Of a stretch of DNA of 23,553 bases, positions 2,928 to 13,728 are shown piece by piece. The stretch is from a virus. How positions within the stretch are numbered: position 1 is the stretch's first letter; the number at the start of each line of letters is the position of its first letter. The notes under the pieces are model-generated. The model was given only the letters and a program-made list of their open reading frames with translations, was not told where the DNA came from and made no database searches. The translations under genes were made by a program, and so were the position numbers. The DNA is taken from IMG/VR virus record IMGVR_UViG_3300013104_000073, positions 1 through 23,553 of that record. The stretch is one strand, 5' to 3'.

Positions 2928-2989
2928 GAAGAAGCGGGAGAACTCAGGGGGTGCTCAAACACCCGGCCTGATGATTTGCCCGCTTTTTT
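2928..2989 (+). ncRNA. Candidate small structured RNA between MuF and gpG
   Basis: The interval folds into three nested stems: AAGCGGG (2932-2938) with CCCGCTT (2979-2985), TCAGG (2944-2948) with CCTGA (2967-2971), and GGGTG (2949-2953) with CACCC (2960-2964). On the plus strand this is followed by six T residues, as in an intrinsic terminator, and preceded by a perfect TATATTTG -7 element. The result would be a roughly 60-nt RNA antisense to the end of the MuF message and the leader of gpG. Alternatively it is a processing or attenuation hairpin in the leftward message, where the T-tract is weak (CTTCTTC). Confidence 0.4.
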
Positions 2990-4322
2990 ATTTTCGATAA
3001 ATAAGTTGATTCTTTCTTTTATTGATAAGTTGTTTTTCGTTTAATATTTTTTTCCCTTTCTTATCTAAGGTTGTTACTTCTACAAATGAATATGGTTTTA
3101 TATTATTTTCGATGTCAGTGATAAGCATTAAAGGCCAGTTTCTATAATATTTTATATAGTATCTTTCCAATTTACCCTTATCGTTTTTATTGCTCCATAT
3201 TTCATCGGGCGATTTAATTACATCTAAAACATTTCCAATGTAATTTTCCCGATGTTCTTTTTTGTGATCTTCAATAGCATGACTGATAAAATCACGATCA
3301 ATTTGTAATTCCAATCCTGTGGGGTCTTTTTCGGTAATGCTTCCCTGGGGTGCAATGTCATTAAACCAGTTATATGCTTCTGCTTTATCAGCAAATTCTA
3401 TTTTAGGTTCAAAAGAAAATCTATTATATAAAGATTCAACGGAAGGCATTCCGTAATTTTTTTCTGCCTGCAATTGTTTAGGCTTTCCACTACCTGCCTG
3501 GTATTTATAGTATCCATCGGGGTCTAAAATTACTTTGGTATTACCTACGTTATGCTGGAAGTAATAAGGAATTACATCTTTATTTTTAAATGTTTTAGGA
3601 TCGGCGGTTACTTTCCCTGCATTTTCTTCGAGCCCGGGAATAACGAAGCAACGGCAATTCCAATCGTTTGGCGGATAAATAGTATTCCATATTGGATCAG
3701 AAGGAGGAGATGTAAAACCATCCAATAAAGCATGAGCAGGGCGCACACGATCATCTTCCACGGTGGAGTATTGAATATAATCCATATCCTTTAGTCTATC
3801 CCATTGAAAAGCCATCTGTGATCCGGAAATGGCAGTATTATATTCTGTTTGGAGCCAGTTAACATTAAACTGGTAACCTGCATCGAGGCAGGCATTTCTA
3901 AAGTCGGTGAAGCTTCTAAGGTTGCCATCTATATCATTGAGCAATGAATTAATATGAATTAACTCTGCCTGGCTTTTAGCTGCGCTGAACTGAAAAACAT
4001 TATCCTGAAAATGTGCCAGCAATGCATTGCGTGAGTCATCAAAGGAAAAGGTAGTGCCACCAAGCCCATTCTGAATAGCTTTTAAAAGATCACCTGCAGT
4101 TTTCCAATAAAGATCATCAGGCACCTGCTGATTATTTATTTTGCCATCATATACTGCACGGGCCAGTTTTTCTATGATGCTTTCAAAAGGATTATCATCG
4201 GAAAGATTATAAAGCCTTACTCCTAAGCCATCTGTCGAGTGAGAGTGATGATGTGAACAAACGTTTTCATAGATTTCTTTTAAATATTCAAATGCTTGCC
4301 CCGCAGTTACGGGGCTGGGTCG
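2988..4322 (-). CDS. Minor head protein MuF with C-terminal BECR-type nuclease-like domain
   Basis: The only standard start in frame is GTG 4124 (378 aa), but the frame is open and protein-like back to 4322, adding 66 codons without ATG, GTG or TTG. Those codons include a helix (FESIIEKLARAVYDGKI) that continues into the MuF domain. Numbering from GTG, the MuF core has FSAAKSQAEL (46-55), NWLQTEYNTAISGSQMAFQW (89-108), RVRPAHALLDG (126-136) and PPNDWNCRCF (151-160), the SPP1 gp7/Mu gpF signature. After a linker, residues 275-365 have DRDFISHAIEDHKKEHREN, SPDEIW, RYYIKYY, and a beta-rich end. This resembles the phage barnase-EndoU-colicin-RelE (PBECR) nuclease domains fused to MuF proteins. 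Expression probably needs a -1 frameshift from the portal gene. Confidence 0.75.
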   Translation of the reverse strand, partial: RPSPVTAGQAFEYLKEIYENVCSHHHSHSTDGLGVRLYNLSDDNPFESIIEKLARAVYDGKINNQQVPDDLYWKTAGDLLKAIQNGLGGTTFSFDDSRNALLAHFQDNVFQFSAAKSQAELIHINSLLNDIDGNLRSFTDFRNACLDAGYQFNVNWLQTEYNTAISGSQMAFQWDRLKDMDYIQYSTVEDDRVRPAHALLDGFTSPPSDPIWNTIYPPNDWNCRCFVIPGLEENAGKVTADPKTFKNKDVIPYYFQHNVGNTKVILDPDGYYKYQAGSGKPKQLQAEKNYGMPSVESLYNRFSFEPKIEFADKAEAYNWFNDIAPQGSITEKDPTGLELQIDRDFISHAIEDHKKEHRENYIGNVLDVIKSPDEIWSNKNDKGKLERYYIKYYRNWPLMLITDIENNIKPYSFVEVTTLDKKGKKILNEKQLINKRKNQLIYRK

Positions 4323-4328
4323 AAAAAA
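4298..4328 (-). other. Candidate -1 programmed frameshift signal (portal to MuF)
   Basis: On the minus strand the portal codons GAT TTT TTC contain the heptamer T TTT TTC (4328-4322), an X XXY YYZ slippery site in the right phase. After a 6-nt spacer (GACCCA), GCCCCG (4315-4310) pairs perfectly with CGGGGC (4303-4298) around the loop TAACTG, which contains the portal stop TAA. A -1 slip continues with CGA in the MuF frame. Slippery site, spacing, hairpin and the missing MuF start codon all agree. Product ratio cannot be judged from sequence. Confidence 0.7.
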
Positions 4329-5623
4329 TCAGCAAGTTGAGTCCTGAACTTATCCCAAAATTTTTGTTTGTAAACAAGTTTCTCCGGCTTATTCTTTTTT
4401 TGTTTTGGAATAATAGGAGATGCAGGAGGCATGGGAGGTGTTTGTTGTTCCTCTTCCATCTTCTTCTTTAATTCATCATAATTTTCCGGCTTTGGTATTC
4501 CGTAGGTTTCATAATAGTAATCATCGCCGACAGGAACTTGTTTTGAAACAAAATCATCAATGGTTTGCCTGTCGAGTAATTCTGCAAGATCAACTTCTTT
4601 TTCAAATTCAAATTTGCCGCGAATGTCGAACCCATAAGTTTGGAGGATGCGAAGAAATTTATCTGAGTTCAAACAATTTTCAACAAATTTCAGATCGCTT
4701 TTTGTAACATCGAGCTGTTGTTTGCCGTGCTCTTTTGATTGGGCATAGCCACTCTTTTTTGAACTTGTGGTTGTTTCGGTAACGGTGAGTATGATAACGC
4801 TCATTTCTTCATTACAAGCGGTTCTAAAGAGTTCCTGCAACTTACCGTCGCCGTTGCTTTGCTTGCCGTCTTTCATATCAAAATCGGCCTGCTTGGGGAT
4901 TAAGAGAGCCAAAGAGCTTCCTGCCTCATCCATTACATTTTTAAGCTCCTGTTTTGTTTTTAAATCATAAGCATCATATTTAATTATTCGTACAGGCTGG
5001 CCAAAAATTTCCACGTATTGAGCCCAATCTGCGAGATTACCTCTCTTCCAAAGTGCATAAGGAGAGCATTTCAACAATAGACCGAGGTCTTTCTTCTCGC
5101 CTATTACCCATATCAATTCCATGTTTTCGTAAGACCAGCCATCCTGCATATTCTGGTCTTTTGAAATAATGCCTAATTCCGGTTTAATATGTTTGCGGGG
5201 AATTTCTTCAAAAGTAAAGTCGGAACCCGGAATAAATTCGATACCGGATATTCCCCAAAAAAATGATTCAATAATTTTTTTCATTATGCCTCGCATTGCA
5301 ATGCTCTCGCATATTGAATTAAGGTCTCCATCTCCTGTGCCATTTATCTTATTACCTTCATTTTTTTCGTAATTGAAATGCAGATTTTTATTCAGAACTG
5401 CATCAATGCGCCTTTGCATTATGCCTGATAAATGGCCGTCAAGAATTACATCAGCGTATAAATCGTAGAGCCTTGTACGTAAGGGATAATAAACATTTTC
5501 GGCAGATTGAAGGGCTAACCTCCAGTCTGCAATATCTTTAGAAGAGCGGTCAGCACTTCTTATTACGATCTGGTTAACAATAAGGCTTTCCGGGTTTTGA
5601 ACCTTCTTTTTTTTTGATGTCAT
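4307..5623 (-). CDS. Portal protein, DUF935 (Mu gp29-like)
   Basis: The 438-aa product is a DUF935-type portal, the dodecameric ring through which DNA enters and leaves the capsid. Recognisable stretches are DWRLALQSAENVYYPLRTRLYDLY near the N-terminus, HLSGIMQRRIDAVL, and FFWGISGIEFIP. They are followed by KCSPYALWKRGNLADWAQY, EIFGQPVRIIKYD, and a C-terminal helical region (LAELLDRQTIDDFV). A Pro-rich linker (TPPMPPASPIIP) and a Lys-rich tail end the protein. Length fits the family. It lies upstream of MuF as in Mu (gp29, gp30). The last four codons follow a T TTT TTC heptamer, so a fraction of ribosomes may shift into MuF and give an 878-aa fusion (434 portal plus 444 MuF residues). Confidence 0.85.
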   Translation of the reverse strand: MTSKKKKVQNPESLIVNQIVIRSADRSSKDIADWRLALQSAENVYYPLRTRLYDLYADVILDGHLSGIMQRRIDAVLNKNLHFNYEKNEGNKINGTGDGDLNSICESIAMRGIMKKIIESFFWGISGIEFIPGSDFTFEEIPRKHIKPELGIISKDQNMQDGWSYENMELIWVIGEKKDLGLLLKCSPYALWKRGNLADWAQYVEIFGQPVRIIKYDAYDLKTKQELKNVMDEAGSSLALLIPKQADFDMKDGKQSNGDGKLQELFRTACNEEMSVIILTVTETTTSSKKSGYAQSKEHGKQQLDVTKSDLKFVENCLNSDKFLRILQTYGFDIRGKFEFEKEVDLAELLDRQTIDDFVSKQVPVGDDYYYETYGIPKPENYDELKKKMEEEQQTPPMPPASPIIPKQKKNKPEKLVYKQKFWDKFRTQLADFFDPAP

Positions 5624-5710
5624 TTTAATTCAGATTAAAACAATAAAAAGTTTTTAAATGTTTACTTGCAAAACAAAAACAAGGGCCTGCATAAAAGATG
5701 AATATTAACT

Positions 5711-6133
5711 CTACCAATGCTGACATTTTTTTAGCGTGGATGAAAAAGTTACTGAACTTCCTTCGGGGAAAGTAGTGGCAGGATCATCGGGTTTATAAGG
5801 CCATCCGTCCGGATCAATTTTACCTGCCATTATTTTATCGAAATAATCAATGGTATCTTCATAAGCAGTTCGGAACATGGCTACATCAATATTAGGATTT
5901 GAAAGTTTAATTAATTGCCAGCAAACAATATCCTTTACTTTATTTTTTAAATTTTCATCATCAAAAGTGTCTGCAAATATTTGCGTAAGATCATATTTAC
6001 TCAAATAACTTTTTGCTTCGGCAATGCCTGCATTAATTGCCTGAGTTACTTTAGTGTCATCTGCCCTTGTAATTTCATCTATGTTTTCGACATAAATATG
6101 AGATTGCAGATCATCTTTAGTTAAGTAAGCCAT
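5711..6133 (-). CDS. Head-tail connector, DUF1320 (Mu gp36-like)
   Basis: The 140-aa product begins AYLTKDDLQSHIYVENIDEIT, then KVTQAINAGIAEAKSYLSKYDL and VKDIVCWQLIKLSNPNIDV. This is the all-helical pattern of DUF1320 and related head-completion proteins, which open with YxTxxDL and carry a repeated A-x-x-E-A-x-x-Y-L helix. The family forms the connector ring under the portal. The C-terminus is short and Pro-rich (DPDGWPYKPDDP). Its ATG overlaps the stop of the 57-aa gene (TAATG), indicating translational coupling. The portal gene follows after 87 bp in which nothing else is recognisable. Confidence 0.7.
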   Translation of the reverse strand: MAYLTKDDLQSHIYVENIDEITRADDTKVTQAINAGIAEAKSYLSKYDLTQIFADTFDDENLKNKVKDIVCWQLIKLSNPNIDVAMFRTAYEDTIDYFDKIMAGKIDPDGWPYKPDDPATTFPEGSSVTFSSTLKKCQHW

Positions 6134-11501: not shown

Positions 11502-11573
11502 AGCGCAATAAAATAAAGGTAGCCTGGCAGGTTCATAATCATCAGGCCGGAGGTTCGAATCCTTCTTGCGCAG
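11502..11573 (+). tRNA. Degenerate tRNA-Met(CAT)-like element
   Basis: The 72-nt element has a 7-bp acceptor with a 1-72 mismatch (AGCGCAA with TTGCGCA), U8/A9, a D-loop-like AAAGGTA with the GG pair, an anticodon loop TTCATAA (CAT at 11534-11536) and an excellent T arm (GGAGG, TTCGAAT, CCTTC). The D stem (AAAT/GCCT) pairs poorly and the anticodon stem (GCAGG/TCATC) keeps only three pairs. No CCA is encoded. It is either a decaying phage tRNA or a tRNA-like RNA with another role; it is followed by a terminator. Confidence 0.5.
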
Positions 11574-13308: not shown

Positions 13309-13728
13309 ATGATAAGAAATGATGCAACCAAAGGCAGTTCTTTAAAAGACATCAAAGAACGCGATAAACAAAATAAGGAGCAAGAGCTTCGTGATAAATG
13401 TAACGCCCTGGCCAATGAAAGATGGGGAGAGGATAAAGTAAAGAAGATGAGCAATGAACATAAAGGGCTCTTTTTTTTACCGGTAATGGATGATGCGGGC
13501 AACATTGAAAAAATAGCATTGATGAAACCCATAGACAGAAATGTACTAAGCTATGCAACTACTAAAATAACCGATGAAGGCTTATATGCTTTTTTGGAAG
13601 CAGCGATGAGGGAATGCTTTATTGATGGCGACCCTGAGATACTTGATGATGATGAATATTTTATTCCTGCAGCTAACTCCTTCAATAAAATACTCGAAGG
13701 TAAAAAAGCATCTCTGCTAAAAAGATAA
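13309..13728 (+). CDS. Tail assembly chaperone, short form (G-like)
   Basis: The 139-aa product lies between tube and tape measure, where nearly all long-tailed phages keep the tape-measure chaperones. It opens with a strongly charged helix (DIKERDKQNKEQELRDKCNALANERWGEDKVKKM). A domain follows with GLFFLPVMDDAGNIEKIALMKPIDRNVLSYATTK and an acidic DDDEYF stretch near the end. It ends EGKKASLLKR. The stop is crossed by a -1 open frame that runs exactly to the tape measure start, the hallmark of the G/GT system. Function by synteny; sequence alone does not name a family. Confidence 0.7.
   Translation: MIRNDATKGSSLKDIKERDKQNKEQELRDKCNALANERWGEDKVKKMSNEHKGLFFLPVMDDAGNIEKIALMKPIDRNVLSYATTKITDEGLYAFLEAAMRECFIDGDPEILDDDEYFIPAANSFNKILEGKKASLLKR

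Follow-up and report, generated by a model that had tools for sequence, protein, structure and literature searches.

A conserved predicted -1 frameshift signal at the portal-MuF joint of Bacteroidota phages, retained in single-frame portal-MuF fusions

Frameshifting in phages is known from the tail assembly chaperones, for example G/GT of lambda and 17.5/17.5* of SPP1, the latter on the heptamer UUUUUUC (PMC6316719). As proposed here, a -1 slip takes place on an X XXY YYZ heptamer shortly before the stop of a gene for a phage structural protein, and the extended product is formed in a fixed ratio. The heptamer of SPP1 17.5/17.5* is even identical to that of the window, i.e. the whole stretch of DNA analyzed here (23,553 nt of the 23.5-kb IMG/VR virus record IMGVR_UViG_3300013104_000073). 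However, other genes and another function are concerned: tail chaperone frameshifts lie between the major tail protein and the tape measure, whereas the joint in the window lies in the head module and leads from the portal to MuF. Bacterial dnaX also employs a -1 frameshift. There, slipped ribosomes terminate shortly behind the site, so that a short and a long form arise, as predicted for the single-ORF phages described below, but heptamer and protein are different, and in the clade of the window a slip would lengthen the product. Portal and MuF on one polypeptide, encoded by a single ORF, are found as natural fusions in the Microbacterium phage clusters EA/EB (PMC7302621), in PHROG 35074 and in Porphyromonas phages. 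No frameshift had been noted in them before; those of the Porphyromonas type retain the frameshift signal. MuF polymorphic toxins (PMC5576092) and PBECR effectors (PMC5512222) possess a variable C-terminal nuclease or toxin, are encoded beside the portal and are thought to ride in the capsid. A frameshift does not occur in those reports, whereas here MuF expression would be tied to the portal.

While all these elements are already known, the nearest precedent for their combination is an isolated prediction for Brevibacillus phage Emery (gp4/gp5; KC595516; PMC4168068; 2014), in which an annotated slip leads from a 520-aa protein to a longer product, both called head morphogenesis. In our scan of Emery, a portal-like protein has T TTT TTA close to the 3' end of its gene, and its -1 extension was identified as Phage_Mu_F (3.8e-12). 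The portal match was weak, pointing to another family (Portal_T4) below its cut-off, and by eye no GC hairpin was seen after the site. As in the window, the predicted Emery slip would join a portal-like protein to MuF, although it had not been described as a portal-MuF frameshift. In contrast to the Bacteroidota system, it concerns a single Firmicute phage and a software prediction, with no conservation analysis in the Emery report. A literature search of open-licence papers found no description of a conserved portal-MuF frameshift or of a frame-swapped form.

The portal gene of the window (4307-5623, minus strand, zero frame, 438 codons) is Mu gp29-like, and its product matched the Portal_Mu profile (PF06074) with 8.8e-59 and 199.9 bits (Pfam cut-off 23.9). 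Its 3' end reads ...CTT GCT GAT TTT TTC GAC CCA GCC CCG TAA. Here a first-pass annotation had proposed a slippery heptamer, followed after a spacer of 6 nt by a GC-rich hairpin with the portal stop in its loop, and re-reading the letters located each of them exactly where it had been placed. The heptamer T TTT TTC (4322-4328, minus strand) is in phase with the portal frame (GAT TTT TTC GAC) and is followed on the same strand by the spacer GACCCA (4316-4321) and the hairpin (4298-4315). The arms GCCCCG (4315-4310) and CGGGGC (4303-4298) enclose a 6-nt loop with the portal stop TAA (4307-4309). In ViennaRNA an extra G-U pair extends the putative stimulatory hairpin, which is assigned by folding and covariation, to 7 bp with a 4-nt loop (GCCCCGT-AACT-GCGGGGC). 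The 32 nt downstream of the heptamer fold with -14.4 kcal/mol (z = -3.0; 0/200 shuffles as good). The covariance model R1 matched the junction at 4331-4293 (E 3.9e-10), while an Rfam scan of the window found no family at the portal-MuF junction.

The -1 frame (2988-4328, minus strand) starts directly behind a TGA at about 4331, ends at 2988 and encodes a MuF minor head protein with a C-terminal nuclease domain. Both domains scored above the Pfam cut-offs: Phage_Mu_F (PF04233; 3639-3851, minus strand; residues 160-230; 1.6e-13, 51.8 bits) and the barnase/EndoU-like nuclease domain PBECR2 (PF18810; 2994-3335, minus strand; residues 332-445; 1.7e-14, 54.5 bits). An open-frame scan confirmed that no ATG, GTG or TTG is present for 66 codons past the slip, up to GTG 4124, and that a -1 slip would enter this frame and yield 434 + 444 residues, both as first proposed. 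The predicted slip-spanning peptide is LADFFRPSPVTAGQ....

Two other places in the window were recorded on the plus strand. At 13309-13728, with a -1 frame to about 13920, a likely tail chaperone pair precedes the tape measure; its 72-codon -1 frame opens just before the stop of the first ORF, and A AAA AGA forms a weak slip site, making a second frameshift possible. Directly after a lysozyme-like ORF, a tRNA-like sequence was found at 11502-11573 (Rfam RF00005, 31.2 bits, just over the cut-off).

A portal-alignment search identified 36 bacterial and 80 viral loci, corresponding to 104 distinct junctions after removal of duplicates. The stretches used by this search fall inside the portal, away from the junction. 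We are aware of the fact that an exact DNA pattern search is biased to the heptamer; frequencies were taken from the portal-homology sets and a phylum sample. One locus (L031) had matched the exact pattern by chance and was rejected. A MuF partner was present in 90 of the 104 junctions, and in 86 of these 90 MuF lay in the -1 frame behind an in-phase T TTT TT(C/T). The other four comprise a single ORF with the site (L155), a T10 run (L149) and two loci that look broken (L082, L150). L082 and L150/L039 were set aside, as they appear to be broken by frameshift mutation or assembly; in L082, a Bergeyella prophage, the site is intact and the MuF frame is broken near a G run (5259-5450). In the remaining 14 junctions no MuF homolog was found beside the portal, which mostly stops near residue 380, and elements without MuF were also without the frameshift signal. 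In the only MuF-less locus read through (L062), MuF is missing and a host gene reading as prfA follows, therefore it looks like a decayed or domesticated element. At 3998-5753 it holds a Mu-like portal and a downstream phage gene beside the host gene, with MuF and frameshift site gone.

Among the hosts are Chryseobacterium, Epilithonimonas, Kaistella and Flavobacterium (isolate genomes) as well as Sphingobacteriaceae, Chitinophagaceae, Prevotellaceae, Paludibacteraceae and Salinivirgaceae (metagenome bins). A prophage of Chryseobacterium ureilyticum DSM 18017 is one carrier of the joint. Across these Bacteroidota phages heptamer, spacer, hairpin and the missing MuF start were kept, in agreement with the first-pass proposal. 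Among the close relatives no homolog was found that combines a regular MuF start with absence of the heptamer, the case that the first-pass annotation had named as refuting; those bearing an ATG retain heptamer and hairpin. In the phylum sample Portal_Mu was detected in 44 of 395 genomes. Of 30 Portal_Mu loci read there, a hairpin accompanied T TTT TTC in five and A AAT TTT in one. The covariance model matched 93 sites in 859 kb of loci; over the 395 genomes it matched four places in Portal_Mu genomes and gave six weak matches (E 2e-4 to 8e-4), which are probably due to chance. As a control, 933 other ORFs of the related loci were inspected: 10 (1.1%) had T TTT TTY within 20 codons of their end, and in no case was this joined by a -1 frame open 150 codons past the stop. 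Many Bacteroidota viruses appear to carry a conserved slip signal at the portal end, and a share of their portal subunits should carry MuF.

The in-phase slippery heptamer was present in all 92 distinct two-frame junctions, as TTTTTTC in 88 and as TTTTTTT in four, and in most of them the stem starts 4-6 nt past the heptamer. The mean hairpin score of the 92 junctions was 13.2, compared to 8.0 (sd 1.9) in dinucleotide shuffles. Stem variants were compensated on both arms, as in GCCCAAC/GTTGGGC, GCCCGAC/GTCGGGC, GCCCCAC/GTGGGGC, GCCCTAC/GTAGGGC, GCCCGTTGAAA/TTTCAACGGGC and others. Using the covariance-model alignment of 90 sequences, which leans towards structure, a covariation of 0.248 was obtained versus 0.079 (sd 0.008) for shuffled sequences (0/500 as high). 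In a gap-free set of 35, picked by hairpin length, it amounted to 0.291 versus 0.114 (sd 0.016) and fell below 0.08 when the partner was slid by one column.

Further slip sites were observed at the same joint in other phages. Elizabethkingia phage TCUEAP3 uses T TTT TTC with a stem of different sequence, the distant phages BS-TP1 (L192) and L218 show A AAT TTT followed by a hairpin, and Peternella_1 and fF4 have A-runs at the joint and MuF in -1. More distant Mu-like portals (pippi8-1, FPSV, several phylum-sample loci) are accompanied by separate MuF genes without a site. These variants bear on the possibility that RNA polymerase rather than the ribosome slips on the T6 run, producing mRNAs with an extra U and the same fusion. 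T6 runs and nearby hairpins can promote such slippage, and some relatives do have A9-A10 (L161, L165) or T10 (L149) runs at the joint. However, T6 with a following C is preserved in 88 of 92 junctions and the X XXY YYZ phase in all of them, L192 and L218 manage without a homopolymer, and the hairpin comes after the heptamer at a distance typical for ribosomal slippage, while the hairpins reported to help polymerase slip are located upstream. Because of the fixed phase, the A AAT TTT sites and the downstream hairpin, we favor ribosomal slippage and consider transcriptional slippage improbable. In L149 itself (5240-5265) the portal ends with the T10 run and MuF is in the +1/-2 frame, which may reflect either transcriptional slippage or a homopolymer error.

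The -1 frame behaves as coding sequence already ahead of any start codon. For MuF codons 12-45 past the slip, which lie beyond the portal stop in most loci, pN was smaller than pS in 889 of 889 pairs, bearing in mind that the pairs are not independent and that synonymous sites are near saturation. The earliest ATG of the MuF frame is found at a median of 68 codons past the slip. In many loci the part that aligns by profile to MuF relatives starts only a few residues from the heptamer. Together with the covarying stems, the purifying selection that acts on MuF codons ahead of any start largely upholds the frameshift reading of the first-pass annotation. MuF starts were annotated late in three deposited phage genomes (L163 4673-4985, L161 4634-4760, L192 4143-4284), where the open frame extends back to the portal end, and the annotated start in TCUEAP3 is about 275 nt beyond the portal end. 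The MuF frames are 167-514 aa long across the loci, and their C-terminal domains vary between PBECR2, CdiA_C or none known. This variability, as in polymorphic toxins, fits the view that MuF proteins carry effector domains.

In Porphyromonas-type phages portal and MuF form one ORF of 820-861 aa. Nevertheless, 15 of 16 examined single-ORF loci (L158, L171-L185) keep T TTT TTC, spacer and hairpin in frame 0. The same holds for L166; L155 has T TTT TTT and a hairpin, and L184 is fused without the site. In the single-ORF phages with the site a -1 slip meets a stop after 20-32 codons and would make a short portal without MuF. On a quick portal tree the single-ORF state reflects at least three separate changes. 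Along ten single-ORF genes synonymous variation was 0.49 (sd 0.09) compared to 0.19 at the site, with none at all in GAT TTT TTC and the stem GCC. An AlphaFold2 model of one natural fusion (L173) reached a mean pLDDT of 52 and was set aside. Possibly, L220 represents another frame-swapped lineage: its portal-MuF ORF of 817 aa has A AAT TTT in frame 0, and a -1 slip stops after two codons.

These data also speak to a MuF protein that is synthesized separately, whether through re-initiation or by use of an internal or non-standard start such as GTG 4124, with heptamer and hairpin serving something else. GTG 4124 is indeed present, and four relatives (L007, L009, L060 and Bacteroides phage p00) have, besides heptamer and hairpin, a MuF ATG at the portal stop. 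However, the stretch upstream of 4124 is conserved as protein, the earliest ATG of the MuF frame comes only at a median of 68 codons past the slip, and the site is retained in one-ORF portal-MuF genes, where re-initiation is not needed. We regard separate synthesis as a full account as even less probable than polymerase slippage. Since the four relatives have both heptamer and ATG, tethered and free MuF are both possible in them, and tethering is not the sole route for MuF there. That the hairpin is a terminator or another DNA/RNA element and the frame break due to decay or sequencing error is, despite the strong hairpin at a gene end, the least credible reading and already contradicted by conservation, as the terminator scan at the junction revealed neither a terminator-like site nor a U tract, MuF is under purifying selection, and an identical T6 break in about 90 distinct junctions, several in isolate genomes, excludes an assembly error as well as the homopolymer error at T6 that the first-pass annotation had named as refuting.

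Overall, we consider it very probable that a programmed -1 ribosomal frameshift joins portal to MuF. This proposal builds on the signal, its covariation, the coding of the -1 frame, the wide conservation and the retention of the signal in single-ORF phages, all read from sequence. Ribosomes near the portal end would run into the hairpin roughly 6 nt downstream of T TTT TTC, and some would slip back by one base, with both tRNA-Phe re-pairing (TTT TTC to TTT TTT). Slipped ribosomes would bypass the portal stop and continue into MuF, so that one start would give two products, the portal of 438 aa and a portal-MuF-nuclease protein of 878 aa. As MuF has no start of its own in the window, it would exist there only attached to the C-terminal end of a portal subunit. 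Such a fusion probably serves to bring a small number of MuF/nuclease copies to the portal ring within the head; we infer function of the signal in the cell, its efficiency, entry of the fusion into the ring and delivery of the nuclease.

SPP1 gp7, the MuF protein that has been studied, is held by the portal with 1-2 copies per capsid (PMC5576092). With a slip of roughly 8-17%, 12 portal subunits would come with one or two MuF, and the frameshift may in this way control MuF stoichiometry, as the first-pass annotation had suggested. The fused-ORF lineages with the same signal show that this is not simply a rare fusion in every phage. In the single-ORF clade the fusion is what unslipped ribosomes would make, so fused subunits are not necessarily the minority in every phage: either the slip occurs often throughout these phages, or their ratios are not the same. 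Common to both layouts is that both products are encoded. It seems rather likely to us that one conserved signal determines, in two opposite layouts, how much portal is made bare and how much with MuF, with the slip adding MuF in one layout and removing it in the other, and that selection acts on both products in a mixed portal ring and not on the direction of the shift.

The finding addresses the question how one or few MuF copies join a twelve-fold portal. A frameshift welding MuF to a share of the portal subunits would be a direct answer, similar to gag-pol. The frame-swapped layout, a natural experiment, suggests selection on the signal itself, and the covariance model can be used to find such joints. 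A further consequence of the frameshift would be that many Bacteroidota prophages have MuF genes mis-annotated with late starts, those carrying toxins or nucleases among them.
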